Under the pieces are notes generated by a model, which was given only the letters and a program-made list of their open reading frames with translations, was not told the origin of the DNA and did no database searches. A program made the position numbers and the translations under genes. Below are positions 10,959-58,555 of a stretch of 64,000 nucleotides of DNA, one piece after another; position 1 is the first letter of the stretch; every line of letters begins with the position of its first letter. Origin of the DNA: Parvularcula sp. IMCC14364 (GTDB lineage Bacteria > Pseudomonadota > Alphaproteobacteria > Caulobacterales > Parvularculaceae); assembly GCF_030758415.1 (NCBI RefSeq), contig NZ_CP132334.1, forward strand, positions 2,430,001 to 2,494,000, given 5' to 3'.

Positions 10959-10967
10959 ACACTCCAC

Positions 10968-32391: not shown

Positions 32392-32407
32392 TGTCCGGTC
32401 TTCTTTT

Positions 32408-38710: not shown

Positions 38711-38899
38711 TTACTGTTCGTCATGCTTCGGAATCACGAGGTCAGGTCGCCCGGGGACATTTTTCGAATGCAGCCGGTAACGGAAGCCGCGCGCATGAAG
38801 TGCCCGCCGAAGCACCAGTTCGGGCTTGGTGTCCTTCCCCTTGATCCCGGCCATCATCCGGGAGAGGGTCTGTTTGTCTACGATATCGGTCACGTGCAC
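38711..38899 (-). pseudogene. vsr: Truncated very-short-patch repair endonuclease
   Basis: 62 residues match the N-terminus of Vsr (DIVDKQTLSRMMAGIKGKDTKPE, LRRALHARGFRYRLH, PGRPDLVIPK) and then stop. Complete Vsr proteins are about 130-150 residues; the part that should follow (V-I-F-V-H-G-C-F-W-H) with the active-site His and Cys residues is missing. The break falls where the tandem repeat array begins, so array expansion or a deletion removed it. The Asp before LV is present, but the remnant should not cut. It is divergent from the C5 methylase, its usual partner. Confidence 0.85.
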
Positions 38900-38960
38900 C
38901 CTAGTCTTCGATCTGGAACCTGGTATACACCGACGGAATGAATTTCGTCAGGAGCCTGAT

Positions 38961-40493
38961 TTGTCAGCCACTTTCGGCATTGTCGATCTGTTCGCCGGTC
39001 CAGGCGGACTTGGCGAGGGCTTTGCTTCTCTCGTCGAGGACGGACATGCGCCGTTCCGGATCGGCATCTCGGTCGAGAAGGAGGCATCAGCCCATCGCAC
39101 CCTTACGCTGCGCGCGTTCCTTCGTGAATACCGGGCTCTTCACGGCACCTTGCCCGACCAGTTCATCGATTACCATGCGGGGCTTGTCCCCGAGCCTGAT
39201 TGGTCAGCAGTCGACGCCGAAGCGTGGCAGCTTGCCATTGATGAGGCTCGTGCACTCGAACTCGGCACTGAGGCTGCTGCGACGGCGATTGACGGTGCCA
39301 TCGCACAGCTGCGCAAAAACTATGACGATACGATTCTGATCGGCGGACCGCCCTGTCAGGCTTATTCCCTGGTCGGGCGCGCCCGGGCAAAGGGCAAGAT
39401 CGGCTATGTGCCTGAAGAAGATGAGCGGCACTACCTGTTCCGAGAGTATATTCGCGTGCTCGACAGGCTTCGTCCCGCCGCTTTTGTGATGGAAAACGTC
39501 AAGGGCATGCTGTCCTCGACTATCGAAAGCCGACTTGTCTTCGAGATGCTGATGGAGGACCTGTCCTCGCTTGGTACGGGCCAAGGTAATCACTACGATC
39601 TGCTGGCAGTCCGCGTGGAAGATGGAAAAGCCAGCCTACAAGAGGCAGCGCGACCGTCAGATTTCATCGTGCGGGCCGAGCAGTTCGGGGTCCCGCAACG
39701 GCGCCACAGGGTGATCATCGTCGGAGTTCGGTCCGACCTTTCGGGCAAGGCTGCGCGCGCCGAGATTGCCGTCTCGGGTCTGACGCGAACGGTCAGTGAC
39801 GTGATCGGGACTATGCCCGAGCTACGCAGCGGGATAAGTCGTGGTCGAGACGATTCATCCGCTTGGCGAGACGAGGTCGTCGAAGCGGCGAAACTCTTGG
39901 CGAGCATCCACAAGGGCAATGAGGACGGCCCGCTTTGGGAGGCGTTCTCATCCGTTGCCAAGCGCTTGAAGTCGGGCGCGCCGAGCCGTCGGACGGCGCC
40001 ATGCCTGCCGGATGGCTATGGCACCTCGAACGATGAAATGCTGCGGTGGCTCGAGCGGCCAGAACTGCGGGCTATTTCCCAGCACGAGACGCGCGGGCAC
40101 ATGGCCTCAGATCTGGGACGGTATCTGTTCGCCGCTGTCTTCGGGGCAGTGCGCGGCTATAGCCCTAAAGCCGCCGATTTTCCGCTTATGCTCAGCCCGG
40201 ATCACCGGAACTGGCACAGCGGAGTCTTCAGTGATCGATTTCGAGTCCAGCTGGCCGACGCGGCCGCGACTACGGTAACGAGCCATATCTCCAAGGATGG
40301 ACATTACTTCATACATCCCGATCCGATGCAGTGCCGCAGCCTGACTGTGCGCGAGGCCGCTCGGCTGCAAAGCTTCCCCGACGACTACCTGTTCCTGGGC
40401 AACAGGACCCAGCAGTATGTCCAAGTCGGAAACGCGGTGCCGCCGTTTCTAGCAAGGCAGATCGCCGGACTCCTCTCGAGCGCTCTGAACTGA
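38961..40493 (+). CDS. DNA (cytosine-5) methyltransferase, DISARM-associated type
   Basis: About 510 residues from TTG 38961, which has AGGAG 5 bases upstream; a longer frame from 38826 would overlap vsr and lacks such a site. C5-methylase motifs are in order: FGIVDLFAGPGGLGEG (I), IGGPPCQAYS (IV, catalytic Cys132), MENVKGM (VI), PQRRHR (VIII) and QVGNAVPP (X). About 115 residues separate motifs I and IV, longer than in simple Dcm-type enzymes. It methylates cytosine to mark self DNA. Next to drmA and drmB it plausibly plays the DrmMII part of a class 2 DISARM. It converges on the NERD-helicase gene (26-base gap) and is divergent from vsr. Confidence 0.92.
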   Translation: MSATFGIVDLFAGPGGLGEGFASLVEDGHAPFRIGISVEKEASAHRTLTLRAFLREYRALHGTLPDQFIDYHAGLVPEPDWSAVDAEAWQLAIDEARALELGTEAAATAIDGAIAQLRKNYDDTILIGGPPCQAYSLVGRARAKGKIGYVPEEDERHYLFREYIRVLDRLRPAAFVMENVKGMLSSTIESRLVFEMLMEDLSSLGTGQGNHYDLLAVRVEDGKASLQEAARPSDFIVRAEQFGVPQRRHRVIIVGVRSDLSGKAARAEIAVSGLTRTVSDVIGTMPELRSGISRGRDDSSAWRDEVVEAAKLLASIHKGNEDGPLWEAFSSVAKRLKSGAPSRRTAPCLPDGYGTSNDEMLRWLERPELRAISQHETRGHMASDLGRYLFAAVFGAVRGYSPKAADFPLMLSPDHRNWHSGVFSDRFRVQLADAAATTVTSHISKDGHYFIHPDPMQCRSLTVREAARLQSFPDDYLFLGNRTQQYVQVGNAVPPFLARQIAGLLSSALN

Positions 40494-40519
40494 TCCGTGT
40501 GACCTGTCAACGAGTGTGC

Positions 40520-42202
40520 TCAGGTGTCCTGCAACCCTTCCGATAGCCACTTGGTTTCGCCTTGGGATGACACCACGCACAAATAGGCCCGCGCTCGCGA
40601 GAACGCGACATATGCCAGCTCGCGGCCGTCCATTTCGTCGCCGCTGACAATCAGGATTATTGCCGGTCGTTCGAGACCCTTGAACCGTCGCACGGTATCC
40701 ACCACCACGTCTTCGAGCGCCATGGTTTCGGCATCTGTCAGAGGAATGCTTGTTCCGCCACTTCTCTCGAGGAAGCCCGTCCGGGCGGCTGGCCCATTGA
40801 CAAGCACAGCAATGTCACCAGGGGCGACTTCCTCTTTGAATACGAGCCGTCGAAGCTCCTTGTATGCGGCTTCGAGTTTTGCATCGGGATTCTCGGCATT
40901 AATCCACGAGACCTCGAGGCCATCGGGCCCGTCCGCGATTATCTCGGGGCCGGAATAATGCACCGAAGCGGCACTGTGGATGTTCTTAGTGTTGCGGAGG
41001 TTTCGGGAAAGCCGAACCGGAACGACGCTCAGATCATGAACGCCATTCTCCGCGCGCTCGTAGACCCTCTGGTTGCTGTCCATGAAGACGCGGAGGTGTC
41101 CACCGTGGCTCAGGCAGGCATCGATTGCGATCCACCAATCGGTACTGAAGTCCTGGCCTTCATCGACAATGATAGTGTCCCACTTGAGTGCCGGCTGAAC
41201 TTCCATCGCGCGGTAGAGCGCGTTTGGCAGCGCACTTTCATAGAGTTCCCGTTCACTGATGTTCGAAGGTGGCGGGACACCAGCCTTGCGAGAGATGTGC
41301 CCGCAAAGTGCGTGAAATCCGGCGACCGTGAGGTTTTTAATATCTTTTAGCTTTCGTTCGAGGTTCGTCGCCAGCGGGCGGCTGTGACAGGTCAGAAGGG
41401 TCTTCCGTCCAGCCGCAGCGGATTTTAGTGCTTCCTCGATCGCCACCACAGTCTTGCCGGTCCCTGCGCCACCTCGGATAAGAGCGCGAGGGATCTCAGA
41501 AATTGTCTCAAGTATCTGATATTGTGAGGGCTCAAGTGCCTGAAAGTCTTCAGCGGCCTCTGACAAAGCCGCCCCAATTACAAAGCTCAATTTGAAAGGC
41601 TTCGCCAACAGCTCCTCCAGTGCTGCCATGCCATCTTTTCCCAAGTCTTCGCAGTTTTGTGGCCGCTGCCCCTCATTCATCCGGCGAGAAATCCACCCGC
41701 GCAAATCGGTGTAGAACTCCCCTTGGCAACAGAACAGTTTGCGAGGGCGATCTGGCCCAAGATCTCCCTTGATCCTTTCGGAATGAGGAAAAATTACTCC
41801 TTGTGCTTCGTGAATGAAGCGCGGATTCCATCGACGTGAATTTTTTAGGCGTTTCCTTATCTCATGTTTTGCGGACCTTGCTTGCGCAACTGGATCTTTG
41901 ATCTTGTGTGGAAAATTCCCTCGGTCCACAGAAATCCATTGATCTCTTTCTGGATCAAACTCTATGCCGCCACCCTTTACCTCAATCGCCAGAATTCCGT
42001 GTGTCGGGTGCGCGATTAGGAAATCGCATTCGCCATCAATTTCGTTGCCAAGCCGATCAAGTCCGACCCAAGGGCGCGTATAAAAAACCGAAAAGCTATC
42101 ATCGAGAGCCTTTGCAAGCTGGTTATATACCCGCACCTCAGCGCTGCGGCGCGAATCTTCCAAAATGGATCGTGGGATAGTTCTGGGCCAAAGTATCGCC
42201 AT
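40520..42202 (-). CDS. NERD nuclease-like domain fused to SF1 helicase
   Basis: 560 residues. Residues 20-140 form a NERD (nuclease-related) domain with Asp60 and the Glu74-Val-Lys76 pattern (DFLIAHPTHGILAIEVKGG). An SF1 helicase follows: Walker A GGAGTGKT at 244-251, IIVDEGQDFS, RLSRNLRNT, VVDTVRRFKGLERPAI and AYVAFSRARAYL. It likely unwinds or tracks on DNA and could cut it. The ATG at 42202 shares one base with the drmB stop (TAATG), so the two are translated together. It is the last gene of the minus-strand DISARM-like operon, a position not filled by this type of protein in classical DISARM as I know it. Confidence 0.9.
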   Translation of the reverse strand: MAILWPRTIPRSILEDSRRSAEVRVYNQLAKALDDSFSVFYTRPWVGLDRLGNEIDGECDFLIAHPTHGILAIEVKGGGIEFDPERDQWISVDRGNFPHKIKDPVAQARSAKHEIRKRLKNSRRWNPRFIHEAQGVIFPHSERIKGDLGPDRPRKLFCCQGEFYTDLRGWISRRMNEGQRPQNCEDLGKDGMAALEELLAKPFKLSFVIGAALSEAAEDFQALEPSQYQILETISEIPRALIRGGAGTGKTVVAIEEALKSAAAGRKTLLTCHSRPLATNLERKLKDIKNLTVAGFHALCGHISRKAGVPPPSNISERELYESALPNALYRAMEVQPALKWDTIIVDEGQDFSTDWWIAIDACLSHGGHLRVFMDSNQRVYERAENGVHDLSVVPVRLSRNLRNTKNIHSAASVHYSGPEIIADGPDGLEVSWINAENPDAKLEAAYKELRRLVFKEEVAPGDIAVLVNGPAARTGFLERSGGTSIPLTDAETMALEDVVVDTVRRFKGLERPAIILIVSGDEMDGRELAYVAFSRARAYLCVVSSQGETKWLSEGLQDT

Positions 42203-44061
42203 TACGCCCTCGCGACCAAATCTTCAAAGAACCCAAGCCCCGAGCGCGTCCCATCGCCGGTCAGGAGCGCGCGATCGAGAAAGCTGTTGAACGTTTCGCA
42301 TGACGTCTCGGGCGCAAGGCAGCATGCGTGGCATACCGAATGCGAGTAGCTGTTTTCCGCACCCATCATGTCCGTGATGCAGAGCGGATCGGAGGAGCAC
42401 CACTCGATCGCGTCGATCGCACGTTGCAGAATGCCCTCAATGCGCCCCGTCTTTCCCTGACGTTCGAGCCCGCCGAGCGTCCCGTCCGAGTCCGGTGTTG
42501 CGGTATAGATAAGAAGCCCGGCCATCTGCTCATCGCCGGTCCCGGCATAGATCCTTTCCTGAAGGGATGCAGAGGAATAACCGCACTCAAGCGTCAGTTG
42601 GCGCATGAGCACGTGCGCGAGGGTGTGGCAGAGCATGTAGCGCGGGGTGATCGCCTGCGGCGGCTTTGCGTCATCGCCATAGCGTTCCTTCCAGTCCGCC
42701 TGATGTCGAACCTCGCACTCGGAGACGCGCGCAATGACATCAGGTCGGATCTCCCAAGTCGACAGCCGTTCCTCGTTTAGTGCAAGGAAGATGCCTTCAC
42801 CTCGAACCTCGATCGCCGGTAGCCATTCAAGCGGAGCCTTCGAGAGCCTTGCCACCTCGGGCGAATCCGGATCGCCGGGCGGATTGATCCGGGTGAATCC
42901 CTTTATGGCGCGAACTTCGCGAAGTCGGACAGCGCGCACCACTCGGAAGATCCATGGAGCTATCTCCGGGGAGACGATTTCTCGTCGGGTTTCGAAGTCG
43001 ATGTCGGGGGTCCGACTGCGACCAGGCTCGGTGACGAACTGCCGATATTCTGCCGGACGCAGATCGTCGGTTCGCAGCTGCCCGTATGACGTGAGGCGGG
43101 CCCGGATCGCCTCTGCCAGTTCTGCGGGTGACATCTCCAACTCCTTCAGGATGCTCTCCAGGTCACCCTTCGCCAAGAAGCCGATGTACTCTTCCAGCTT
43201 CGACAGGTCGTCGAGATTCGTAAGGGAACTCCACCAATCGCCTAAGACTTCCTGAAGACGGTCGGACCAGGGCGGTATGCTGAGAGCTGAATCCGTAACC
43301 GAAAAGTAAAGGTTGGACGCACCTCGCTGGACTGCGTACTGCTCCTTGCCACAAGTTTCATCGCCATCGGCAAGCCATGGTCGATGCCCCCGACATTTCG
43401 GCCCGCGTTCCCAGGTCTTCTTCGAGAAAACGCCGTCCATAGACCTGCGCGCGCCGCACTTCGGGCAGCTGAGTATGAGGCCGGCGAGGCCGGGTTTTTC
43501 GGACCGCAGGATCAGACCGGGATGACGCTCTGGGTTTTCGCGCTTCGAAACCGCGCAATCCGGCCTGTGCCCCACCCACCAGTCCCAAGGGAACTCGTCT
43601 ACGTGGCCATGCTTGCAGGCCATCACGAAGCGGACTGGGATGACGAAAACCTTGCTGTCACCATGGGATCTTTCCGTGCACGTCGGGCAGTAGCGGTAGG
43701 CCTTGCCCGGATCGCTCTTCCATCGCCGTTCCGGCTTGATGATATCGCAGCTGGGGCACTGTAGCCATTTTGGAAAACGCACAGCGACGAGACGCCTGGT
43801 ATCCGGATCGTCATCCTTCCCCCGTTCGAGGGTCACAGGGGGCGTCCTGAATCCCTTCACGCCAAGTTTCTTTTGCAGGCGTGTCTCACGAATGACCTGC
43901 GGGTGGGCCAGACCAGCCGGAGGGAAGGAGCGGTCCCATTCCTCGAGTCCCGCTGCTATCGCCGAAACGGCTCCTCCACCTGCCCTGAAATCCACCACCG
44001 AGCCGGGACCAAATGTCGAAACGACTGCGCTTCGCCGCAGATCCTGAAGGTCATTCTTCAT
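42202..44061 (-). CDS. drmB: DrmB-like DUF1998 protein
   Basis: 619 residues from ATG 44061 (AAAGGA 8 bases before; a longer frame to 44283 reads through drmA in another frame). The start LRRSAVVSTFGPGSVVDF is typical of DrmB. Cysteine pairs at CPSCDI, CPTC, CPKCG and a C-terminal CSSDPLC/CHACC set suggest several zinc sites. The DUF1998 core is near the end (MLCHTLAHVLMRQLTLECGYSSASLQERIY). DrmB forms a complex with DrmA in DISARM and helps block incoming DNA. The gene overlaps the drmA stop by 11 bases and the next gene by one base. Confidence 0.93.
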   Translation of the reverse strand: MKNDLQDLRRSAVVSTFGPGSVVDFRAGGGAVSAIAAGLEEWDRSFPPAGLAHPQVIRETRLQKKLGVKGFRTPPVTLERGKDDDPDTRRLVAVRFPKWLQCPSCDIIKPERRWKSDPGKAYRYCPTCTERSHGDSKVFVIPVRFVMACKHGHVDEFPWDWWVGHRPDCAVSKRENPERHPGLILRSEKPGLAGLILSCPKCGARRSMDGVFSKKTWERGPKCRGHRPWLADGDETCGKEQYAVQRGASNLYFSVTDSALSIPPWSDRLQEVLGDWWSSLTNLDDLSKLEEYIGFLAKGDLESILKELEMSPAELAEAIRARLTSYGQLRTDDLRPAEYRQFVTEPGRSRTPDIDFETRREIVSPEIAPWIFRVVRAVRLREVRAIKGFTRINPPGDPDSPEVARLSKAPLEWLPAIEVRGEGIFLALNEERLSTWEIRPDVIARVSECEVRHQADWKERYGDDAKPPQAITPRYMLCHTLAHVLMRQLTLECGYSSASLQERIYAGTGDEQMAGLLIYTATPDSDGTLGGLERQGKTGRIEGILQRAIDAIEWCSSDPLCITDMMGAENSYSHSVCHACCLAPETSCETFNSFLDRALLTGDGTRSGLGFFEDLVARA

Positions 44062-47000
44062 GTGTATCATCCTTTGCCCTGAGGACAGGGGCCATCCTGA
44101 AGGGGGTTCCTGCCTCGACGGTCCGCATGGAGTTGAGGGTTGGCCAAGCAGCGCCGGTATCGCGGCCGGCAGCCCGGCGAGCGGCTGCGCGCTCGGCGCT
44201 CTGGAGAAGGGATTTCCCCCCCTTGTAGTCGCTCCAGTAGACAGTGGGGGACCTTGCTCGCCATGTGTCGAGACGGCGTTCAAGTTCTTCCCTCACGGCA
44301 GTCTCTTCTGGATCGATCCGCTTCGCCCGGTCGACGATCAGGTCGATGAGGCCCATCGCGAGGTCTTCTGCGTCATCGTCCATGCGGGGAGAGTCGAGCA
44401 TGTCAGGAACAAGGTGGCGAACCGCAGCAACCAGCGCCGCGTGCAGCGCCCTGTCGCGAGCCCGTGATGCAAAGGGAGTAACGCTGGTCGCCTCTACATC
44501 CCTGTATAGGGTGCGGTGCCAGCTACAGAACGTCTCGAAATGCGAACGGTCGCGCGCCTTGGCGTTGTTGAGGACCGCAACGACAAGTCCGCTAACGTCT
44601 CCCCGCCCGACACGGCTGGTCGACTGGATGTACTCGGCGATGGTCTTGGGTTGCCCGTTGACCAGCATCAGTCCCAACCGGGAAATGTCCACGCCGACGC
44701 TGACCATGTTTGTCGCAAGAACTGCGTCGACAGCGCCCGGAAGCCCGACCTTGATGTCGAGAAGGTCGAGCATCCCGCGGATTTCTTCCTGCGTTCTCCG
44801 GGATGTCAATTCCTCGACGTTGCTGAGAGGTCTTCTCTCTTCGGAGCGAGCGTCAGCATTTAGCGCGATACTGTCGGTGACGTCGTCCTGCATGAGGACG
44901 AGCGCACCGCCGAGCTCGCGAAGCGAGTTGAAGTACCCGACGAGCGTCCAGTAGGCGTCCCGGCGAACATCGTCGCTGAATGCCGCATAGGCCGTCTGCA
45001 GAAGGGAACCCGCGACGGCCTGCAGGGTGAACTTTGCCGATCGACCGGCCGTTGTAACGCCGAGATAGCGTCTCCCGACGGCCTTCGGCCGCCGGTCGCG
45101 AACCGCGAAACCGGAATCGTCGTGATCGATCGCTGGCGGCGGGAACTGGAATGCTTCGCGATCGAAAAGGGCCAACACCTGCTCCGACGCTCTGCGGATC
45201 GTCGCGGTCGATCCGATGACCTTCGCCCGATGTCCGCGCGCGGCGAACATCAAGTCAAAAGCCGCCTCATACGCTCCAGCGATCGTCCCCAGAGGGCCGG
45301 AGATCAGGTGTAGCTCGTCCTGGATTATGAGATCAGGCGGCGAGCCATCCGAAACCCCAAGCAGGTCATTGGTTCGCTTTTCTCGGACTATCTGAGCGAA
45401 CTTGTCGGCCGTTCCGATGAGCAACGTCGGCCGGTTGTCGTAGACATCTTCGTCAACAGTGAAGACAGGCAGGACCCCGTTCATCTTGCACGTGTTTTTC
45501 GTGCATTCGGCATCAACGGGTGAGGTGGCGCTCGCCATTGACCATGTCAGTTTCTCACTGCAGGCCGGACAGCGCGCGAGCTGTTTTGGCGAAGCCACCT
45601 CCGAAGACCCTCGAAGAGAAGCGAATGCATCGGTGCGCTTGTTAGGAGTAGCATCCCCTCCAACCCACAGGCCGATCGAGAAAGGTTCGTCACCTTGAAG
45701 CGGCAGGCCGTCTGGCGCCGACACTCGGCCGGAGCGTATCGCCTCCAAGGCGACGATCATCGCGGCAGAGCGTGCAAACTGCTGGGTCGTGAGTAGGCGC
45801 AGCGTATAGCGCATGAGGGCACAGACACCGCTGTGGTCACTCGGATCATCCGAGAGCCGACGATACACGGCAATGCACGCGACCAGCGCGAGGTATGCCT
45901 CGGTCTTGCCGCCGCCGGTGGGAAACCAGAGGAGATCCATGACGCCCCGGTGCATGTGATCACGGATGACCGAGGATGGCGCACTGAGGAGCAGGAATCC
46001 CAGCTGGAACGGACGCCAGCGCAAAGGGCCGTGGTGGCTCTTGGAGCTGTCCCAAGAATGCTGCAGATGCATGGCAAGGTTTGCCAGCTGGAAGGCTCGC
46101 CGAAGGCGCGGATTGACGCCTAGTTGGTCGACTGATGCCCGCATACGCCCAAGCGCTTCATCGCATTGGGCGAGATGCGCGTCAGCCACAGACTTCAGTT
46201 GTGGGCTCACGTCCGACGCGTCGTCCAAGCGCTTCCGCTGCAACCGTACCCAGCGGTCGTAGGCGTCGCAGAAGGTCTGCAGCCCTTGTTGAAGGGCCGC
46301 TGTATCGGCATAGGCCAGTGCCTCGGCCGAGAGCGGATCCAATTCACCGCTTTCGTTCCCAAGCTCGGAAAAGAAGGCGTGACCATTCGGATCGACGCCT
46401 TCCACTATTGCTGAAGGGAGCCACGTCGTCCCGACCCATCGTGCAGTGGGGCGCGTTCCGGCTGCATAGTCCGGCGATTCCCAATCCGCGGAGCAGACAT
46501 GCCCGACAGCGAACTCCGCTACGTTCCTGTATAGCAGAGCCCCGCTTTCCTCGTCACTGACTGAAGCGGCCCCATCGGTCCTCCCTTGATGCCTCGACGC
46601 CGCGCGTCGAGGGGGCTTAGGCACCAGCAGGGTTCCTTCACAAGGTTCGATGCGAAGCGCCGTCTGGAAAAGCGACGCGGCCTCGATCTCGTTTCGACCC
46701 TGCTCTGGAACTATCGAATTCACGAGCGAAAGAGTGACCAGAACGGACCCGCCGGCATTGATGCATCGCACACTGAGTGAGACGTTGGGCAGCCCTTCAC
46801 CGTGTTCGGCAAGCGCAATTCCGCGCGTCGGGCCGGGTTGGAGATCGAGGATTGGAATATCAACCATATGCGGCTGGCGAACCCAGATATCGACGTCGTC
46901 GCGCTTTTCGATCCGGTACGTGGCGAAGCTGCAGGTGACCCGCACTTGCGCTATGTCACTCGAAGCAACAACGCTGAACGATACGCCCGCAACAGAGGGC

Positions 47001-49098: not shown

Positions 49099-49220
49099 GT
49101 GGCGTGCTCCAACTACTGTGCCCGCGTTCGAAATTGGGTCCTGAACACTCGCTTCAGCCGTGTCACCAATGTGTCTACGGCACCCAGCGGCATCCTCGTT
49201 GGTTTTGTCCTGAATGATTG

Positions 49221-51689
49221 CTATCTCCGGCCAAAAAAGAAAAATGGTGGAAATGCCACAATTCTCGGTGCCAAGATGAAACCGGAGGAAGCCCAAGGCT
49301 CATTCAATGTCTCGAGTTCATTGTCGTCCGGGCTCATTACGATTGTTGCACAGCCCAGACCTCTCACATGGTTCACGTAGCTGGGCGGCTTGTGGCTTTT
49401 CTTCTGTTTTTTGTTCCCGAGTATCTCCCACAGGTCGTACGTGAGATTGCGCGAGAGGGCGCCAACACAGGGACCCTCGCTACCAGCCTTGATCCTGTAG
49501 CGCCAATCGAGGTCGGGATCGGCTTCCAATTTGTACGTGGTGACCACATCGGCGACCTTGGCCAGAAAAGCTTGACCCGCCGAGGCGTCGGCAAGGCTAA
49601 ACTCACTCCGGCCGACGAGACTCCGCGCGGTGATGTCGCCATCACGACCGATCTCGACCATCGTCGACTTGCCGTTTCTCGACGAGCGATGAACTCGTCC
49701 CGATGGCAACGTCGATGCTCTGAAGGCGTTGCTCTCCCCGACTATGAGGGATGCGCGTGCACGCGTGGCACCGACAAAGAGCACGCGCGCCTCTTCTATC
49801 TCGTCCTCGATGCACTCGAACTCCGCGCCGTTCGGCAGCAGCAGAACGACGTTGCTCGACTCGCGACCCTTGCTCGCGTGAATCGTCCCAACGATAGGTC
49901 CGTGAAGACCGTACTCGGGGAGAGTCAACTCGACAGGGGGCCGGGTCTGGCCAAGGCGTCGCCTCAGCCTCTGCATGTCGACGGAGCCGTCCATACGTCC
50001 TGCAACGCGCATGAGGTGCCGCCAAGCTTCGCCCGGCCCGTACTGTGGCGCCGCCATGTTCTCGATGCGCTCCGCCCAGAGGTCGAGAAAGCGTCGCTCG
50101 GCGAGAAACGGGTCTAAGAAGTCTGCGAAACAGATCGCCAGCCATGCCGGAAGCGTTACCCCGAATCCTGACAGGCGCAACCGATGGGGAAGATCACAGA
50201 ACTGCGACGCCATGAGGACTTCGGCCCGAGTTCGAAAGAGCAGAAGATCGTTGCTGGAGAAGTCAGCAACCTTCATCTCCGTCCACTTCAGCCCTTGCTG
50301 GTCGGCCAGTGCCCGGATTTTTTCAGCTGTCTCGACGTGCAATCCGTCACGGTGCTTCTGTTTGTCGAGGACATCACTCCGCAGTTCAGAGAAGATTTTG
50401 CGAAGCCCGGGGGAGGACGTTCGATATATTTCCGTCAGGACAAGTGTGGTGAAGCCTAGTGCCTTCACGCCCCGCAAACGGTCGAGCAGCGGCTTGCCGG
50501 GCTCTGAAACTCCCCCTTTTTGACGCCCGATAATGTCGTCGGAGAAGCCATAGATCGCCTGGGCCTCGTCGGCGAATATCGTGAATCCGCAGTCCGAAGG
50601 CAGCCGATCCACTAGCGCCTCGATCAGGTCCGCTCGCTGGCCGACGAGGTCCTGCGCCTCGTCAATGACAACGTGCTCGATCTGCGCCAGTTCGTCTGCC
50701 ACGTCCTCATCAGCCTTCAACAGCTCGATGACGCGGGTAATGTTCTCGTCGTAGGATCCGGTCAGCCTCGCATTCGGGTCATGCCCAGAGTGGATGGACC
50801 ACGCATGCGAGTCGATGGTCGCGATCCGAATGCCAAAGGATGCATCGCCGACGTAGGAATGCAGCCGTGCACGGATTTCCGCCACGGCTGTCCTGGTGAA
50901 GCTGATCATCCAGGTATTGCTGGGTTCGATATCTTCTTCGTTGATCAGGTAGGCGAGGCGCGCGCAGGCGACGGCTGTCTTTCCGGTTCCGGGACCCGCC
51001 TCAACGACAAGCCTGGCATCCGAATCCGCCTCGATCACCCTGCGCTGATCTGCATCCCAGCCTGCATCCGTGCTTGAGACATTATCCGCGAGTCCGAACC
51101 AATCATTTATGAAGGCGGCATTCACTTCGCTCGTTGACCACTCCAGGGTCACAGGATCAAACACGCCGCTCAATGTTAGCGCTCTGCGAAGCGCTGGAGT
51201 CATCGCACCATCGCCGGTCCATCGTCCCTTCGGAGAAAGAGCGGATGCCCCGGTCAAGACAGCCGAGCCTTCGAAGGAGTCGAGGAAATCGATCAGAGTC
51301 TCGGTCGCGGTCTCATCAACATCTGGTACCAGATATTCAGAACCCATGCCGCTCTCGATACGATGATCTCCTATGGCAACGACCTTGCCGTCAGGCAGCG
51401 CGATACGACGTACGGGCAAAGCCACGAGGACTGGCTCGCCAAGTGTCATTCCGAAACCGACGTCCTTGATCTCACACAGAACATCAATCACGCTTTCGAC
51501 GAGTGCCGAGGCTTCCGAACGGTCTGGTCCCTCGATAAACTGCTGAATCCATTCCACCACTACAATCCGACTGACGCCACGGCGGGCGCTTACGACACGG
51601 CGCACCAGATCCGCAATCGCTCTTCTGGTGCGAGGTCCGGACCCCGATGGTATACGAAGGCCGGTGATCAAAGTGTGTTCGATGTTCAC
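49221..51689 (-). CDS. UvrD-type helicase with unknown N-terminal domain
   Basis: 822 residues. Residues 1-210 form an unrecognised domain (RIVVVEWIQQFIEG, LCEIKDVGFGMTLGEPVLVALPVRRIALPDGK) before an SF1 helicase: Walker A GPGTGKT at 232-238, VVIDEAQDLVGQ, FADEAQAIYGFS, TEIYRTSSPGLRKIF, TIHASKGRESSNVVLL, and ARVLFVGATRARASL. Start is GTG 51689 with GAGG about 7 bases upstream. It is the first gene of the minus-strand operon leading to drmA and drmB, and is divergent from the 988-residue gene. Probably an ATP-dependent DNA translocase that helps the DISARM-like machinery engage invading DNA; inference. Confidence 0.88.
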   Translation of the reverse strand: MNIEHTLITGLRIPSGSGPRTRRAIADLVRRVVSARRGVSRIVVVEWIQQFIEGPDRSEASALVESVIDVLCEIKDVGFGMTLGEPVLVALPVRRIALPDGKVVAIGDHRIESGMGSEYLVPDVDETATETLIDFLDSFEGSAVLTGASALSPKGRWTGDGAMTPALRRALTLSGVFDPVTLEWSTSEVNAAFINDWFGLADNVSSTDAGWDADQRRVIEADSDARLVVEAGPGTGKTAVACARLAYLINEEDIEPSNTWMISFTRTAVAEIRARLHSYVGDASFGIRIATIDSHAWSIHSGHDPNARLTGSYDENITRVIELLKADEDVADELAQIEHVVIDEAQDLVGQRADLIEALVDRLPSDCGFTIFADEAQAIYGFSDDIIGRQKGGVSEPGKPLLDRLRGVKALGFTTLVLTEIYRTSSPGLRKIFSELRSDVLDKQKHRDGLHVETAEKIRALADQQGLKWTEMKVADFSSNDLLLFRTRAEVLMASQFCDLPHRLRLSGFGVTLPAWLAICFADFLDPFLAERRFLDLWAERIENMAAPQYGPGEAWRHLMRVAGRMDGSVDMQRLRRRLGQTRPPVELTLPEYGLHGPIVGTIHASKGRESSNVVLLLPNGAEFECIEDEIEEARVLFVGATRARASLIVGESNAFRASTLPSGRVHRSSRNGKSTMVEIGRDGDITARSLVGRSEFSLADASAGQAFLAKVADVVTTYKLEADPDLDWRYRIKAGSEGPCVGALSRNLTYDLWEILGNKKQKKSHKPPSYVNHVRGLGCATIVMSPDDNELETLNEPWASSGFILAPRIVAFPPFFFFGRR

Positions 51690-51828
51690 AGAATGCCTCG
51701 CAAAGTACCACAGGAAGACGATTGACGTTCAATTGCTTAGCAGTCAACCTTGCCACGGTTATATCGTGCCGTGAAATTCTTTATGGGACTAAAACTCGGC
51801 AACAGAGTGGCGAGTTCGGGAAATACAA
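51690..51828. promoter_or_regulatory. Divergent promoter region of the DISARM-like block
   Basis: 139 bases separate the starts of the two divergent operons (helicase-drmA-drmB to the left, 988-residue protein-SNF2 to the right). It contains TTGACG at 51722 and a GTTATATC segment at about 51758, which could be parts of a promoter, but I cannot assign -35/-10 pairs with confidence. Shared control of both operons is likely from the layout. Confidence 0.45.
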
Positions 51829-54795
51829 ATGTATATCGGCAATGCGCTAAAAGACAGACATGAGGCACTTGCCGATCATTTCGCAGACCTTGCCGATGCG
51901 CGAGGCCAGCTTCCTCTTTTTGCAATTGAGCATGGCCTTGACGAAGCCGCACTGGAAGGGCTGAGAACGGCAGTCTCTGGTCAGCTTGAAGCCGATCCCC
52001 AGCTACAAGGCGCTGCGTGGTCTTGGAGCTATCTGCCACTTCTCGTCATGGCCACTGAGGTGGGTTATCGGTACCGTGGAACGGGTACCGATTTCTGGCC
52101 GGTCTTGGCTCAGGAACTCGGCGTGGAAGCCGGGTCGGCGTTCCGTTCAGGATTGTCCCGCTTGTTTCATCTGGGACATCGGAGTTTTCGACTGGTAAGG
52201 CCGGGTGACAGTCCTTGGGAGCGTCATTTCCCGCATATCGCTTGGCCGATTGGCAACGCGCTAGTTCCGCTGGAGATACAGCCGCAGTTGACGGATGCCC
52301 TGAGACGATCCGTTAGAGCGGGGATCTCGGCGGAAAACATGGATGGCCTGCTTGAGTATCTCAAAATGCTGGCTGCCGGGCACGCCAGTCGTCGATTCGA
52401 GAACTGGTTGCAGCAGGAAGATATTGCTGCAGAGGTCATGCGGCGTCTTCTTGCGCCAGATGCAGAAGGCTGGCTTTCTCACGGTATCCTGCAGCGGATT
52501 GACAATGACATAAGGAAAGACCTCAGTTCACATCGCGCAATTTCGGAAGCGCGCAAGGCTGCAGCAAGAAGATCAGCTCGTGTTACCGCGATTGCGCCGT
52601 CTCAATTCGTAATCACGCTTGTTGACAGCGTGCCGAAGCAGCTTCTGGTCAGAGGGCCTGCGCTGCCGTCCCAATCACGTGATGAGGTGATCGCCGCGTT
52701 GCGTATTCAGGGAGACCGGATAAGGGCTTCAGGAAGCGATCAGACCATCGCGCTCCGTTCATTTCTCGCCGGTGGGGAAATCGGGCTAGGCAAGTTCACC
52801 GGAATGCCTACCGACCCTCTATCCCGTGGCGATGCAGCACATGTCGAGCAAGGTCCCGCTTATGAGGCGCTTGAGAGTTTGCAGCCCCGGCAATCGGCTT
52901 TCTTCCTCACCGAGCGGGGCGAACGGACTGCCCGCGCCATCTTTCCGGACGAAGCCCTTGCACCAAATGCCTCAATGCTCCAATTGCTGCGGATCGACCG
53001 CGATGGCACGCCAGAGTTTCGTTGGCTTGAGACATCTTCGGGAGCTGATGTCGAACTGCTGCGACGAAATGGCTTCAAGGTTTCCGATAAGGCACCGTCG
53101 CTACCACTTCTCGGTCTGTTAATGTCGGGTGCTCAGAATAGTTTTCTGCGTGGCGTTCCAGTACTTGCCGCGCAGAGCTTGACACATCGAACATTGCTGC
53201 TCGACGGGGTTCAGCCTGCCAGCGAAACGCTCCATCTCCAAGAGGATGACTGGTCCGTTTTTGAGCCTGGTGTAGGCAGGCACTGGGTTGGACCTGCAGA
53301 TGGCGATGACCATGATCGAGTTGGGTTCGAAGTTGTCGAGCCACCCGACCTGGAGCCCGCATCGATCAGTATTATTCCCACCAACGCCAATATCTCCGAT
53401 CTGGAGGCTGGGCGTTTGGAAATCAGGATTACGGCACCGCTCAACCTTGAGGAAGTCCCGGTAAGGCTACGGCTCCGATCGGCCGAGGTACCCGAGGTGA
53501 TTTCCGAGGGTGTCATTGACCGACTTCCTGCTCGAATAACTGGGCACTCACCCCTAATTCGAGCGCTGCGGGCGCAGCTGGCTGAAGGCTCCGCAGGCCT
53601 TTCCGACCTGCGCCTGACAGTAGATGTTCATGGTCTTATGCAACTCAGCATTTCGCTTCCTCCAATGCACCGCGAATTTCACCATGACACGGACTTGGAT
53701 CAGTGGATCAGTACAAATGAAGGTGGCAGGGTTTTGCCTTCCATGGTTGCAACCCTGCAGTCTCCGATCCCGTGTACGTCAGAAATCGTCCCTGCAGGCA
53801 CTCGGCTTATTCTCCCCGATGCCATAGATTACGGGGCGCTAGCGTCAGGCCTGATCATCTCAGAGAGGTCAGAATTTCACATTGGTATGCACGAAGCCGA
53901 TTCCACCTCAATTCCTGCGCTTTTGCGAGAGGCAAGCTCGCGGAATAATGGCGTTGGCCTGATTGATCTTGCGCGTGCCAATGTTGCATGGCAACTCGCC
54001 CAAGCGAGCGATCAATTCGGTAACTGGCGACGCTGGTCGGTTGTTGAATCCCTGGAAGAAACACTGATCGAGTTGCTCTGTGGCGTGGCATGGCGCAAGC
54101 TCGAATCCGGCATCGATCTTTCGATCCTGTCTCAACACGGCGCACTTTTGAGAAGTGCTGAGGCACTCGGTCTCGTTTCAGGCGAGGATCTGCCAGAGAT
54201 CGAATCCAATTCGGACCAGCTTTTTCTTCGGGACCGGCTGATCGCACGTCTGAGGGAAACGGTACCCGATATAACAGACGCACTGGCCCGATTGGACGAC
54301 GAACTTGCTGGCGACCTAGATCTCGCGGTTATCGATGCATATGAGGATCTGCGTAGACACGTACAAGCTGGCGGTCGCGAAGCGTTCGAAGAGGTCGACA
54401 TGGCCCGTTCCTCGACGACATGGCGCAAGGCGTTGGAACGCGCTCGGGACATCCCGCTTCTACCAATGTTCCGGCACCTTATCCTGCCAGAAGCGCGGTG
54501 GAAGGCACTGACGAATACCTGGTATGCTGAACTTACCGAGGATGATCTTGTCGATCTGCTCGACTCCTGCCACGTCGATGCCTTCCGACGACCGGGGCTT
54601 AGATGGCTTGGTAGGGCCGAATTGCGGACAATGCTGCAATTGTGGCTTTCGCCGCGAGCGATGATCGAAGCAGATGAGTGGCCCCGATTTCTGGCAAAGG
54701 GCCTTTCAGACATACAGACCAGTCGCGCTGTCCGCTACGTTGCACTCCGCCGAAAACTGGCTCTGTTGGACATGCCAGACGGGAGCCCAATGTAA
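51829..54795 (+). CDS. Unrecognised 988-residue protein of the DISARM-like block
   Basis: 988 residues, soluble, mixed helical and beta. I recognise no family or catalytic motif. Residues 1-250 are mainly helical and contain HFPHIAWPIGNALVPLEIQ, which may be a conserved box. Residues about 250-680 appear beta-rich (VTAIAPSQFVITLVDS, LEIRITAPLNLEEVPVRLRL). Residues 680-988 are helical again (AWRKLESGIDLSIL, RFLAKGLSDIQT). No HKD (PLD), PD-EXK or Walker motif is evident, so it does not look like DrmC. ATG 51829 has GGGA upstream. The stop TAATG is shared with the SNF2 gene start, so the two proteins are probably made in equal amounts and may bind each other. Confidence 0.85.
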   Translation: MYIGNALKDRHEALADHFADLADARGQLPLFAIEHGLDEAALEGLRTAVSGQLEADPQLQGAAWSWSYLPLLVMATEVGYRYRGTGTDFWPVLAQELGVEAGSAFRSGLSRLFHLGHRSFRLVRPGDSPWERHFPHIAWPIGNALVPLEIQPQLTDALRRSVRAGISAENMDGLLEYLKMLAAGHASRRFENWLQQEDIAAEVMRRLLAPDAEGWLSHGILQRIDNDIRKDLSSHRAISEARKAAARRSARVTAIAPSQFVITLVDSVPKQLLVRGPALPSQSRDEVIAALRIQGDRIRASGSDQTIALRSFLAGGEIGLGKFTGMPTDPLSRGDAAHVEQGPAYEALESLQPRQSAFFLTERGERTARAIFPDEALAPNASMLQLLRIDRDGTPEFRWLETSSGADVELLRRNGFKVSDKAPSLPLLGLLMSGAQNSFLRGVPVLAAQSLTHRTLLLDGVQPASETLHLQEDDWSVFEPGVGRHWVGPADGDDHDRVGFEVVEPPDLEPASISIIPTNANISDLEAGRLEIRITAPLNLEEVPVRLRLRSAEVPEVISEGVIDRLPARITGHSPLIRALRAQLAEGSAGLSDLRLTVDVHGLMQLSISLPPMHREFHHDTDLDQWISTNEGGRVLPSMVATLQSPIPCTSEIVPAGTRLILPDAIDYGALASGLIISERSEFHIGMHEADSTSIPALLREASSRNNGVGLIDLARANVAWQLAQASDQFGNWRRWSVVESLEETLIELLCGVAWRKLESGIDLSILSQHGALLRSAEALGLVSGEDLPEIESNSDQLFLRDRLIARLRETVPDITDALARLDDELAGDLDLAVIDAYEDLRRHVQAGGREAFEEVDMARSSTTWRKALERARDIPLLPMFRHLILPEARWKALTNTWYAELTEDDLVDLLDSCHVDAFRRPGLRWLGRAELRTMLQLWLSPRAMIEADEWPRFLAKGLSDIQTSRAVRYVALRRKLALLDMPDGSPM

Positions 54796-57764
54796 TGGAT
54801 CAATATCTGCGGTTCATAAACGGGCTACAGGCTCTACGTCGCAAAACATCCGCTCTTGGCATTGGCTTGGGAGGCGCTCTCGGTGTAGCCGCCGATCCGT
54901 TACCTCATCAGCTTGCGACCGTACGCCGGGTGCTGGGCGACAGCCATATTCGGCATTTGCTGTCTGACGAGGTCGGCCTCGGGAAGACAGTCCAGGCGCT
55001 GATGATAATCAATGCCTTGCGATGGCAAGATTCGTCGCACAGAACTCTCGTGATCGCACCGGACAATCTCTTGTCGCAATGGCAAGAGGAGGCTTGGATT
55101 CGCGGTCACGTAATGCCCGCGATAGCCGGGACCATTGATGGAAGCGATGACGAGACTTCGCCAATCACGCTGGCCAGACCGCGTGATCTTATGACTCGAA
55201 GTGGACAGGAAGCACGTACTATCAGCGCTGACCCTACTGTCTTCGATTTGCTGATCGTGGACGAGCCGCAAACCATGCCACGCGATGCGATCCAGTTCGT
55301 GTCTCAAGTTGCGGACGAGTTTCGACAGGTGCTGGTACTGTCGGCCACACCCCGACTTGGCGATCCCTCGTGGCGCGATCCCATTCTGCGGATGATCGAA
55401 CCTGAAGCTGCCTTTCGCGCCAGAATCGAGGGCCGACCGCTTGACGAGATTCTGGAAGATCGCGAGGCGCAGGCCATTTCAGCGATACGCAACCCAGAGG
55501 ATTTGCTCGAAAGAACCTGTGGCTTCGTTCGAGCAGGGGCGGGACGGCGAGTAATACGAAATGGACGCGCAGATTGGGGCGAGTACCTTCCTAAACGAAG
55601 GAACCACGAAATCCGAATTCAGCCTTTGGCGCCGGAGCGGTTGCGATTTGAAATTGCCGGTATGCTTCTCCAGGACGCCGATCCCGAGCAGGGACTTCAA
55701 GGTTCGGCATGGACGTCAGCCAAAGCTCTTCTGCGAAGCGCAAGGGCTGCTCGTACGGTCTTGGCTGATTTGACCACGCGTGGCGGCACTCTCGGCAAGA
55801 TGGCGGAAGAGGCGCGTATTGCTTCGCTCGAGAACCCTGGAGACAGCCGCCTGGACGCGCTCCTCGATATTCTCTCAGCTCAGTGGGGCGGGAATCCGGA
55901 CAAGGCGTTCATCATTGTATGTGGTGACAACCCGACCATCGATATGCTGAAGACAGCGCTGCCTCGCTACTTTCCCGATCTTGCGGATGCGATCTCGGTC
56001 TTGCGCCGTCCCGCTTCGACAGACGTCGAAGGCGTGACCAACCTGAGAGAAATTCAAGAGACACTTGCTCCTATGTTGTCCGGGGACAGCCGCCTGTTAC
56101 TTGTGGGGGATTGGGTGCAAGCAGGGCTCAATCTTCATCACGTCGCACAAGGCATCATCTTTTTCTCTCTGCCTTGGGAGGTTGACAGTATTGATCAGTT
56201 GATCGGTCGAGTCGACCGGCTCCGTTCCACAGGTGATAGAAAGGGGGCCAAGCGTACAATTGAGATTTGGCGGATCCTGCTTGAAGGTTCGCAAGAAGCA
56301 GCAATTGCCGACTTGGTTTCGTCCCTTGGAGTTTTCGATTCACCTCTTCCTCCATTATCTCCGTCCGAGTTGACTGAGGTTCAAGCTTCACTAGGCCAAG
56401 CTGCAATCAAACGCCAAATAACTCGTGGCGTATCACCGCTCGCTGGCAAGGGGACAGGTCTGCATACTCGCTTGGCGTCAGCTGATCCCTTCACACTGAG
56501 GCGGGCGTCGACAGAATACGAAAGTTGGCATGAGCAGCCCTGCCCAGCTCCCGCAATGATGAATGATCGAGCGCGTCCAAATGATACGCCGATACGCAAG
56601 GAAGAGCGCGCGATAGGCGCATGGCTCAGGGCAATCTCGAGTTCGACCGATTTCGATGTGGGAGGTCGTGTCGACAAAGTGGACGGATACGGCTTCCAGA
56701 CAATCTGGTACCACGGAGTTGGCGAGAGAGGGCGTGCAGGTGACAGCCCATTCTTGCTGCCGGGAGCGTCTCGGGACAACTGGATGACGGGGCATGTACC
56801 TTTCATTTACCGGCGTTCAGCAATTACCGCTCCTCCGCGCAAGGGCGTTTTCACTGATGATGGCGAGCGATCCGCCGAGGGTTCGAAATCCGCTCGCCCA
56901 CTGCATTTTCTCGATCACGGGGGCGATTTGCATGATGCTTTGGTTCACGGTTACTCGACCGGCGTCATGGAACAATTTGGACTCACGAAGCCAGTTGTCC
57001 AGACGAGCGTGCGGCTTCCAGAAGGGCATCCAGCACGGGATATCGGTCCGATAGTAATAGCGACTGTCGTTAGTCTGGATCCCTTTCCCGACGAGCTTCT
57101 GCCACCACTTTGGTCGCCCGCTGCAAATGAGATCTTGGCGTCGGCACCGACTGAAGCTCAAAGGAAGTCGCTAACCGCCGACCGTCGGCATTTGCAGGTC
57201 CTGTTGCGTTCAATTCAGCGCAGGGTGCGGCTTGAAGTGCCGGCGCAAATGTTGCGCATCGGCTCCGTCAAAGGGAAGGATGGCTGGACCGGATTATCGA
57301 CTGAGCAACTCGACCTTTGCCTGCAGCCGTTAACGTCGTCTACCAACAATGCAGTGGCTCGTGGAAAAACGCCGCTATCTGCGCTTGAGAGGCCAGAGGT
57401 TGCGCGCACAGTGAGGTCTAGCCATCTCAGTCAACTTAATACAGAGGCGAAAAGTTATCAATCTGCGACCTTGGAGCGTTCCCGTCCTGCTCTTGAGTAC
57501 CTTGCCATGCAAATCTTCGGACACTTCCAGGCCGAGATTCTAAACAGGGAACTGGCACTTGAACGTCGTAGAAGCTCTCCGCCCGAAAGTGGCCCAGTAG
57601 AGCTTTGGCAGGGTCAGGTAGCAGCGTTGGAGCGCTCATTATCAATGGCACGGCTCATGAGTTCCGAGGCTTCAGCCTACATACAAGAATTTGGTTCCGG
57701 AAGAATTCATCCCAAATCCCCTGAGCCACTTGGCATCCTTCTTGCTCTCGTCTCGGAAACTTAA
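54795..57764 (+). CDS. SNF2-type helicase with DEPQ box
   Basis: 989 residues. SF2/SNF2 helicase motifs: PHQLATVRRVL (Q-like), LLSDEVGLGKTVQAL (motif I), VIAPDNLLSQWQEEA (Ia), LIVDEPQTM (motif II; DEPQ instead of DEAH), LVLSATPR (III), NLHHVAQGIIFFSLPWEVDSIDQLIGRVDRL (V/VI). Arrangement resembles RapA/HepA and DrmD-like DNA translocases. After about residue 520 there is a long C-terminal part without known domain. ATG 54795 shares one base with the stop of the 988-residue gene. In class 1 DISARM an SNF2 helicase (DrmD) is present, so this gene could be its counterpart, but the cytosine methylase is of the class 2 kind. Confidence 0.88.
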   Translation: MDQYLRFINGLQALRRKTSALGIGLGGALGVAADPLPHQLATVRRVLGDSHIRHLLSDEVGLGKTVQALMIINALRWQDSSHRTLVIAPDNLLSQWQEEAWIRGHVMPAIAGTIDGSDDETSPITLARPRDLMTRSGQEARTISADPTVFDLLIVDEPQTMPRDAIQFVSQVADEFRQVLVLSATPRLGDPSWRDPILRMIEPEAAFRARIEGRPLDEILEDREAQAISAIRNPEDLLERTCGFVRAGAGRRVIRNGRADWGEYLPKRRNHEIRIQPLAPERLRFEIAGMLLQDADPEQGLQGSAWTSAKALLRSARAARTVLADLTTRGGTLGKMAEEARIASLENPGDSRLDALLDILSAQWGGNPDKAFIIVCGDNPTIDMLKTALPRYFPDLADAISVLRRPASTDVEGVTNLREIQETLAPMLSGDSRLLLVGDWVQAGLNLHHVAQGIIFFSLPWEVDSIDQLIGRVDRLRSTGDRKGAKRTIEIWRILLEGSQEAAIADLVSSLGVFDSPLPPLSPSELTEVQASLGQAAIKRQITRGVSPLAGKGTGLHTRLASADPFTLRRASTEYESWHEQPCPAPAMMNDRARPNDTPIRKEERAIGAWLRAISSSTDFDVGGRVDKVDGYGFQTIWYHGVGERGRAGDSPFLLPGASRDNWMTGHVPFIYRRSAITAPPRKGVFTDDGERSAEGSKSARPLHFLDHGGDLHDALVHGYSTGVMEQFGLTKPVVQTSVRLPEGHPARDIGPIVIATVVSLDPFPDELLPPLWSPAANEILASAPTEAQRKSLTADRRHLQVLLRSIQRRVRLEVPAQMLRIGSVKGKDGWTGLSTEQLDLCLQPLTSSTNNAVARGKTPLSALERPEVARTVRSSHLSQLNTEAKSYQSATLERSRPALEYLAMQIFGHFQAEILNRELALERRRSSPPESGPVELWQGQVAALERSLSMARLMSSEASAYIQEFGSGRIHPKSPEPLGILLALVSET

Positions 57765-58498: not shown

Positions 58499-58555
58499 GT
58501 TCATATACTAAATTCTATATATTCTATATATTTCAATATATTATTTATTTATTTA

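Follow-up and report, generated by a model that had tools for sequence, protein, structure and literature searches.

Gene content of the locus

We analysed a window of 64,000 nucleotides from the single-contig, 3.417-Mb genome of Parvularcula sp. IMCC14364 (contig NZ_CP132334.1, positions 2430001-2494000); coordinates given without a contig or locus name refer to this window. Within it lies a cluster of genes encoding the DISARM-type proteins DrmA and DrmB, a C5-cytosine methylase, a NERD-UvrD nuclease-helicase, two further UvrD helicases, a SNF2-type ATPase and a 988-aa protein that we call X988. We lean, with modest confidence, towards the view that this locus is a DISARM-related anti-phage system with an architecture distinct from those of classes 1 and 2, that it sits on a tRNA-Phe island, and that it is built of two separately evolving modules. 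The core module would comprise DrmA-DrmB, a GajB-like UvrD helicase and the NERD-UvrD helicase-nuclease, and the shell module X988, SNF2 and a 207-aa N-terminal domain of UvrD-1, joined in the window's lineage by the C5 methylase. The features of the unit are listed below, where G098 denotes a relative of the window's genome, and L004 and L005 are related loci of Paenochrobactrum and Yoonia, respectively.

38826-40493, + strand: C5-cytosine methyltransferase, DrmMII-like (PADLOC DrmMII 272 bits; Pfam PF00145 147 bits)
40520-42202, - strand: NERD nuclease-UvrD-type helicase, core module (Pfam NERD 37 bits)
42202-about 44070, - strand: DrmB (DUF1998/MZB), core module (NCBIfam DrmB_fam 511 bits, cut-off 240)
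44051-47257, - strand: DrmA (YprA-family SF2 helicase), core module (NCBIfam DrmAS 839 bits, cut-off 950)
47257-49296, - strand: UvrD-2, helicase without the N-terminal domain, start uncertain (Pfam UvrD-helicase)
49221-51689, - strand: UvrD-1, whole gene, helicase with an extra N-terminal domain
49221-51067, - strand: UvrD-1 helicase domain, core module (79% identity to the free-standing UvrD of G098, 32% to L004)
51068-51689, - strand: UvrD-1 N-terminal domain, 207 aa, shell module (91% identity to L004; absent from the G098 UvrD)
51829-54795, + strand: X988, 988-aa protein, shell module (no library match; family alignment)
probably 54795-57764, + strand: SNF2/RapA-type ATPase, shell module (Pfam SNF2-rel_dom; translation)
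40465-51067 (10.6 kb): core module exchanged en bloc relative to L004 and L005 (blastn)

The methylase gene, whose true start may fall within its open reading frame (ORF), converges on a leftward operon of NERD-UvrD, DrmB, DrmA, UvrD-2 and UvrD-1 (40520-51689, - strand). About 140 bp past this operon starts the rightward pair of X988 and SNF2, in which the stop of X988 overlaps the likely start of SNF2 (the ORF of the latter opens at 54678, with a likely ATG at 54795, and ends at 57764). Translation shows every ORF of the unit to be open. A sequence-only reading of this DNA had named drmA, drmB, a C5 methylase, a NERD-UvrD helicase, two UvrD helicases, a divergent 988-residue protein and a SNF2 helicase, and Pfam, PADLOC and NCBIfam bear out the presence of them all.

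DrmA scores 640 bits with the PADLOC DrmA model and has DrmA 7s9v as its best PDB match (421 bits); by these matches it would be clearly homologous to the DrmA of DISARM, though it falls below one curated threshold (839 against 950 bits). Its motifs GGGKT, DELH and QSTSRVGR belong to a set present in 22 of 22 DrmA sequences, and the Walker A and DEAQ motifs of UvrD were found in 17 of 17. The GExDF...EVK motif of NERD is likewise kept in all ten aligned sequences, that of the window included. The SNF2 protein has DpdE (137 bits, cut-off 500), RapA (82, cut-off 576) and DrmD (64, cut-off 610) as its closest NCBIfam models and RapA as its nearest solved structure (100 bits). No significant Pfam or PHROGs match was obtained for the UvrD-1 N-terminal domain, and X988 of the window gave none in Pfam, PADLOC (also at E 1), NCBIfam or PHROGs.

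The order DrmB, DrmA, UvrD / X988, SNF2 recurs in 13 further loci, making 14 with the window, and the DrmA proteins of these loci fall to 43% identity to that of the window. Eight of them (L004-L011) came from an X988 scan of genome contigs, and all eight carry NERD, DrmB, DrmA, UvrD / X988, SNF2 in order as far as the contigs reach: that of L010 is cut inside NERD and that of L011 inside DrmB, with the end of DrmB, NERD and the methylase on a separate contig, and L009 has its NERD frame broken into two parts. A search of plasmids returned seven records, namely three from Rhizobium (of which L012 was read), one from Azospirillum (L013) and three others of a Druantia-related kind; L012 and L013 keep the same gene order, the SNF2 of L013 running past the end of its record. 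Three more loci were added from virus-collection contigs (L042 and L043) and from a genome of a phylum sample (G727), and no NERD was seen in the stretch of L043 examined. The loci are thus spread over plasmids, genome contigs and virus-collection contigs, and a second viral scan returned only loci already known. The sequence-only reading had counted five helicases, which is right for the window (DrmA, SNF2, NERD-UvrD and two UvrDs); the pair of UvrD-1 and UvrD-2 occurs in just two of the 14 loci, the window and L010, and we rejected it as a hallmark of the system.

Does this locus belong to DISARM? According to the available text of its description, PADLOC defines DISARM I by DrmA, DrmB, DrmC, DrmD and DrmMI, and DISARM II by DrmA, DrmB, DrmC, DrmE and DrmMII (PMC9252829). 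The locus shares with both classes separate DrmA and DrmB genes, has a DrmMII-like C5 methylase, and contains a SNF2-type ATPase as class 1 does. DrmB, which belongs to the DrmAB core of DISARM, scores 511 bits against its cut-off of 240, and the DrmMII of class 2 is matched at 272 bits, above the generic MTase_II model at 225 bits. In contrast to both classes, DrmC, DrmE and DrmMI were not found (DrmE having been sought in the locus proteins only), and NERD-UvrD, the GajB-like UvrD and X988 stand there instead. The locus also differs from class 1 in that its SNF2 lies far below the DrmD cut-off (64 against 610 bits) and in that its DrmA groups separately from those of the class 1-like loci sampled. 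The sole methylase of the unit is of the C5 type (PF00145), and no DrmMI occurs among the PADLOC and NCBIfam matches listed (for PADLOC, the best 25 per protein). Likewise, DrmE is absent from the matches listed for the eight locus proteins (NCBIfam, and PADLOC with the best 25 for four of them), a search that did not extend to the rest of the genome.

DrmC was sought more widely. No ORF of at least 120 aa in the window has the PLD pattern used or matches the DrmC of the class 1-like locus of G391, and a genome-wide PLDc_2 search found one ORF only, at 588 kb, more than 1.5 Mb from the locus. The negative result for the window rests mostly on PLDc_2, which detects in 12 of 14 control genomes; the regular expression for PLD found DrmC in one of three class 1-like loci, phmmer with that DrmC found only itself, and the sensitivity of these two is uncertain. 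The loci with X988 also contain no DrmC-like gene, as far as they were read. These results agree with the sequence-only reading, to which neither DrmC nor DrmE was visible; it would have taken a drmC just outside the block as a sign that the unit was accidental, and the only PLDc_2 match is the distant one. Its description of the locus as a mix of class 1 and class 2 proved loose, given the SNF2 score, the missing DrmMI and DrmE and the separate DrmA clade. On the tests made, the locus fits the definition of neither DISARM class 1 nor class 2, and we class it as a novel form of DrmAB/YprA defence.

We considered whether it might nevertheless be an ordinary DISARM class 2 system, whose DrmC and DrmE have been lost or replaced and which decay or tool thresholds alone set apart. 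The DrmMII-like methylase, the DrmB above its cut-off and the DrmA near its cut-off are all consistent with this, and DrmC is apparently non-essential for DISARM activity, according to the available text of PMC9142583. However, the ORFs of the unit are all open, and its DrmA falls in a separate clade (in a tree without a proven class 2 locus). No X988 locus has a DrmC-like ORF as far as read, with NERD and UvrD of intact motifs present instead, and the class 2 definition of PADLOC, in the text available, demands both DrmC and DrmE (PMC9252829). We therefore regard an ordinary class 2 system as quite improbable.

The DNA seam and the two modules

How might the window's arrangement have arisen? 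Compared with L004, the window has 95.7% DNA identity over 51067-57737 and 91% over 40058-40463, and between these flanks no DNA similarity except for 50 bp. Compared with L005, it has 93% identity over 51070-57737 and 91% over 38719-40465. The shell DNA thus agrees with L004 and L005 at 91-96% identity, and the 10.6-kb core shows almost no DNA similarity to them; L010 (Paracoccus), in contrast, matches the window at about 95% throughout 41823-57715. The left seam, at 40465, falls at the 3' end of the methylase gene or in the spacer between it and NERD, and the right one, at 51067-51070, lies inside UvrD-1, at residue 207. Residues 1-207 of UvrD-1 share 91% identity with L004 and 86% with L005, against 32-33% for the remainder. 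In G098, a genome from the same taxonomic order as the window's, the methylase is 73%, NERD 71%, DrmB 88% and DrmA 84% identical to the window, and its 617-aa UvrD aligns just to residues 207-821 of UvrD-1, at 79% identity; X988 was not found in the G098 genome, whose core lies on a 16.4-kb contig. UvrD-1 is therefore a chimera that joins an N-terminal domain of the L004 type to a helicase domain of the G098 type. We propose that the lineage of the window acquired a G098-like core within an L004/L005-like shell, and that, with the seam falling between the two domains of UvrD-1, the new helicase would have retained the resident N-terminal domain.

The same division is seen across the 14 loci (up to 91 pairs, with NERD from ten loci and DrmB and SNF2 from 13). 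Pairwise identities of NERD, DrmB, DrmA and the UvrD helicase domain correlate with one another at r 0.98-0.99, as do those of the UvrD-1 N-terminal domain, X988 and SNF2 (r 0.98-0.99), and between the two blocks r is 0.50-0.63. For groups picked after the trees had been seen, the approximately unbiased (AU) test rejects the window, L010, L004 and L005 as a clade on DrmA (p 4e-60) and L004 and L005 together with six other loci on X988 (p 2.9e-4); the pair of the window and L010 on X988 is not rejected (p 0.235). In the X988 tree, L004 and L005 are placed as their DrmA predicts, and the window and L010 are not. Because the X988 positions of these two disagree with DrmA, unlike those of L004 and L005, we read the window and L010 as the probable recombinants.

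Since the core also occurs without its X988 partners, in G098 and in a further genome, G459, we conclude that the locus is made of two separable modules and is neither a fixed cluster nor an accident. The sequence-only reading had held that drmA-drmB without these partners in neighbouring genomes would make the unit accidental. Such cores do exist, which bears this out in part, yet the joint arrangement recurs in 14 loci. Its proposal of a distinct anti-phage unit accordingly stands as regards the conserved partner set, found in the same order in 13 other loci, and needs amending in that the modules are separable and the function is putative.

Could the two modules simply be independent defences, a DrmAB-NERD-UvrD-methylase system and a divergent X988-SNF2 system, brought together only through shared islands? 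The X988-less cores of G098 and G459 and the separate evolution of the two blocks would fit this. So would two plasmid loci, of Paracoccus (L014, 14815-29359) and Leisingera (L015, 11188-23895), in which X988-SNF2 stands beside NERD and DruE1 (1430 bits, and 837 bits for a cut copy) and no DrmAB was seen in the stretches examined. Against independence, the same order and divergent junction are kept in 14 loci with DrmA down to 43% identity, on plasmids, genome contigs and virus-collection contigs alike. Moreover, although it belongs to the same polypeptide as the core helicase, the UvrD-1 N-terminal domain varies together with X988 (r 0.98) and stayed in place when the core was replaced. In L014 and L015, too, the shell is again found with a YprA-family partner, and these loci may be the Druantia-core counterpart of the window's shell. 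We thus consider two merely adjacent systems unlikely and retain the reading of one system built of two modules.

The methylase is the looser partner. It adjoins NERD in the window, L004 (where the contig end leaves only its 3' end), L005 (where a 243-aa ORF sits between the two), L006, L007, L011 and L042. Elsewhere, a methylase 47-49% identical is found about 4 kb away on the opposite strand in L009, and one 66% identical about 22 kb from the locus in L008; the genome of L010 and the record of L043 yielded none, and none was seen in the examined stretches of L012, L013 and G727. The methylase that the sequence-only reading had listed as a DISARM-like partner is therefore present and DrmMII-like, as claimed, but it is not a constant neighbour. 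The window's copy is 93% identical to that of the Yoonia locus, against 73% to that of G098, and goes with the shell in the swap. In the genome of Rhodovulum strictum, a second methylase copy, 78% identical to that of the window, lies on another contig (L088, 9411-11096), with no core genes in the 19 kb around it.

Distribution and probable island setting

The distribution of the locus is patchy across the genome samples. Among 385 genomes of the class, DrmB occurs in eight and the X988 profile in four, the window's own included in both counts (for X988, two candidates per genome were scored); the other three X988 genomes have DruA1 beside X988 and no DrmAB in the stretch examined. Among 398 genomes of the phylum, the X988 profile was found in three, namely the window's own, G727 (of the DrmAB type) and G793 (of the Druantia type). 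In a set of 100 relatives, again with the window's genome included, DrmB occurs in five (four above the cut-off) and X988 in two, the second being a weak partial match in G088 (E 2.6e-4, residues 751-856) that was set aside, with no Drm genes in the 20 kb examined. The other relatives with DrmB are G098, with a window-type core, G018, which is class 1-like, G052, on a 7-kb contig, and G050, below the cut-off.

Eight other DrmB loci of the class sample come from seven genomes. Those of G391, G229 and G189 are class 1-like by gene order alone, DrmD not having been scanned. Those of G258 (L031 9271 to L032 1004), G196 (L033 9753 to L034 1050) and G240 (L038-L039) hold a C5 methylase, a 906-1109-aa protein, NERD-UvrD, DrmA and DrmB and represent another DrmAB branch. 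No PADLOC model matched their large protein, and a relationship between this protein of about 900-1100 aa and X988 was unsupported (hhalign probability 0.04%, with a 3-row alignment of 16-19% identity). The seventh genome, G459, has two DrmB loci, one of them with a window-type core and an interrupted drmB, and no X988 in its 33.7-kb contig. At L037, positions 7960-11922 hold a window-type core (methylase, UvrD, DrmA, DrmB, NERD) whose drmB frame is broken by about 2 kb of other DNA, and further along the same contig is a DrmD-like SNF2 gene (PADLOC 536 bits).

The DrmA tree unites the 14 X988 loci with one G459 locus that lacks X988 (Shimodaira-Hasegawa-like approximate likelihood ratio test 100, stem 0.85); the three class 1-like loci, those of G258, G196 and G240 and the other G459 locus fall outside this clade. 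The tree was a rapid one, with several long branches and a midpoint root chosen for display, and it was built without G098 and proven class 2 loci.

The unit probably occupies the distal end of a tRNA-Phe island of about 33 kb, whose landmarks are as follows.

25429-25504, + strand: tRNA-Phe (gaa), probable integration site (ARAGORN)
25482-25505, + strand: left att-like repeat, the 3' end of tRNA-Phe, with a near-copy at 58553-58577
25615-26862, + strand: tyrosine integrase of the island (Pfam PF13356, PF22022, PF00589)
58553-58577, + strand: right att-like repeat, probable distal island end (25 columns, 88% to the tRNA 3' end)

The right repeat is positioned just beyond SNF2, and its local score of 19 exceeds the second-highest score in the window, 13 on either strand. 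The same island carries a type III restriction-modification pair (N6/N4 methylase and ResIII/RE_endonuc, 29485-35578), a second phage-integrase-family ORF (35601-36686) and a UvrD ORF (26910-29033).

This setting bears on whether the genes might instead be a DNA repair or recombination cluster of MrfA/YprA-like helicases, with no anti-phage role. The UvrD and SNF2 families also act in repair. The YprA family, moreover, includes the MrfA repair helicases, according to PMC12458937. Against a repair cluster, DrmA matches the models and the structure of DISARM DrmA, and the methylase, the island, the adjacent type III restriction-modification genes and the patchy distribution fit defence. A repair cluster is, in our judgement, very improbable.

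Several points weigh against the reading of a DISARM-related system of two modules that we prefer. First, the block correlations are driven largely by one swap, common to the window and L010, and the contrast between them is no binding test: it suggests that the shell is a unit by co-inheritance. Second, the combination is rare, with DrmAB and X988 together in one of the 385 class genomes (the window's own) and in two of the 398 phylum genomes (the own included). Third, the DrmA clade also holds the X988-less G459 core and so is not defined by X988, and by its 84% identity G098 would fall in the same clade. Fourth, the methylase adjoins NERD in only 7 of the 14 loci and may not be obligatory. 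Fifth, a full-length AlphaFold2 model of X988, made from nine sequences, is not interpretable (predicted local distance difference test, pLDDT, 51.7). A model of its N-terminal 255 aa is all helical with a pLDDT of 73, and none of its 156 matches among PDB structures (E up to 10) reaches E 0.001. Finally, the anti-phage function of the locus is one that we infer by analogy.

Proposed mechanism and relation to known defence systems

The locus bears on how DISARM, Druantia and other multi-gene helicase defences select their targets and divide the labour. In the window's unit, we speculate that the SNF2-X988 pair might be a double-stranded DNA translocase with a recognition or licensing subunit, the part of X988 being a guess, and that it might dock on the core through the UvrD-1 N-terminal domain, an adaptor role suggested by the seam. 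DrmAB would load on single-stranded or 5'-overhang phage DNA, UvrD would unwind it and the NERD nuclease would stand in for DrmC, while the methylase, where present, would mark self DNA. These roles are modelled on known systems: in the available text of the respective papers, DrmAB is autoinhibited and activated by 5'-overhang DNA (PMC9142583), and a GajB-type UvrD binds DNA ends (PMC10952713). The most likely nuclease of the unit is NERD, given that all 10 aligned sequences retain its GExDF...EVK motif and that the searches for a DrmC-like gene were negative.

The natural domain swap points to parts that must match (the UvrD-1 N-terminal domain with X988 and SNF2) and to parts that can be exchanged (DrmAB, helicase and nuclease), and it offers a direct test of docking and of what determines the phage range. 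X988, for its part, represents a large protein family in DISARM-like and Druantia-like loci that is undescribed in the four libraries scanned; a sequence search of the PDB was empty, and X988 is absent from 50,697 phage records at E 1e-5. We found no description of the architecture in the open-access literature covered, largely at the level of listings and abstracts and with subscription papers outside its scope, and the YprA survey that names ARMADA, BRIGADE and TALON does not describe this gene set in the portion of its text covered (PMC12458937).

The same survey describes ARMADA, a tested anti-phage system that combines YprA helicases, a RapA-like helicase, a methylase and a GajB-like helicase (PMC12458937). 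The window resembles ARMADA type II in having a YprA-family helicase, a RapA/SNF2-type ATPase, a methylase and a GajB-like UvrD in one locus. ARMADA has as its own features a fused YprA protein with DUF1998, a Vsr nuclease, a RelE-like domain on UvrD and a PglX-like methylase (PMC12458937), whereas the window has a split DrmA/DrmB, a NERD nuclease, a C5 methylase and the added X988; in place of the fused YprA-DUF1998 and the PglX-like methylase that mark ARMADA, separate genes and a PF00145 methylase were found. With Dpd, the locus shares a SNF2 closest to DpdE among NCBIfam models (137 bits, cut-off 500), but there are no deazapurine genes among the ORFs scanned, and DrmA matches DpdJ weakly (33 bits, cut-off 800). 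With Gabija, it shares UvrD-1 and UvrD-2, which match many GajB models in PADLOC; no GajA was seen, however, and the UvrD-1 N-terminal domain lies outside the matched stretches.

The closest unexpected relation of the locus appears to be Druantia type I, by way of X988. An X988-family protein lies between DruA1 and DruD1 in L044, L052 (G276) and L060 (G793) and between an annotated DruA and DruD1 in L016; it follows DruA1 in L050 (G236), where the following ORFs, DruD included, were not scanned, and in L053 (G445), where the contig then ends. DruE1 scored 2061 bits in L044, the only one of these loci scanned for it, and ORFs comparable in length come next in L016, G236 and G793. The large helicase gene of G236, G793 and L044 is followed by an ORF that resembles the NERD-UvrD protein of the window, chiefly over the helicase part. 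The canonical order of Druantia is DruA-B-C-D-E, and the X988-family protein sits where DruB and DruC are expected; one PADLOC DruB1 and one DruC1 model gave no match in six Druantia-type records, nor did any positive control give a signal. The similarity to X988 is strongest in its first 230 residues, to which the plasmid search aligned L016 at 31% (E 3e-10). Over the N-terminal 255 residues, identity to X988 is 23-29% for the Druantia-type proteins, and over the full length it is 21% for L016. The X988 profile used for genomes contained L016, so that these searches lean to the Druantia-type group, and the branch of L016 and L044 is long in the tree.

The window's unit thus shares with Druantia type I an X988-family protein, which there adjoins DruA1 and precedes DruD1 where scanned, and differs in that it has no DruA, DruD or DruE and in that its YprA helicase is the split DrmA/DrmB. 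Among the PADLOC matches listed, DruA, DruD and DruE are represented only by DruE3 on DrmA (14 bits); the methylase also matches DruM2 (150 bits, below DrmMII). We tentatively suggest, as a possibility held with less confidence than the two-module reading itself, that DISARM, Druantia and this locus may share one interchangeable toolkit, in which an X988 shell, often with SNF2 and, in DrmAB loci, with the UvrD N-terminal domain, plugs into DrmAB or DruE cores via a domain that recombination severs and re-fuses at a fixed junction. Effector cores would then be swapped and the recognition shell kept, and the locus would represent a third class of DISARM with a physical link to Druantia.

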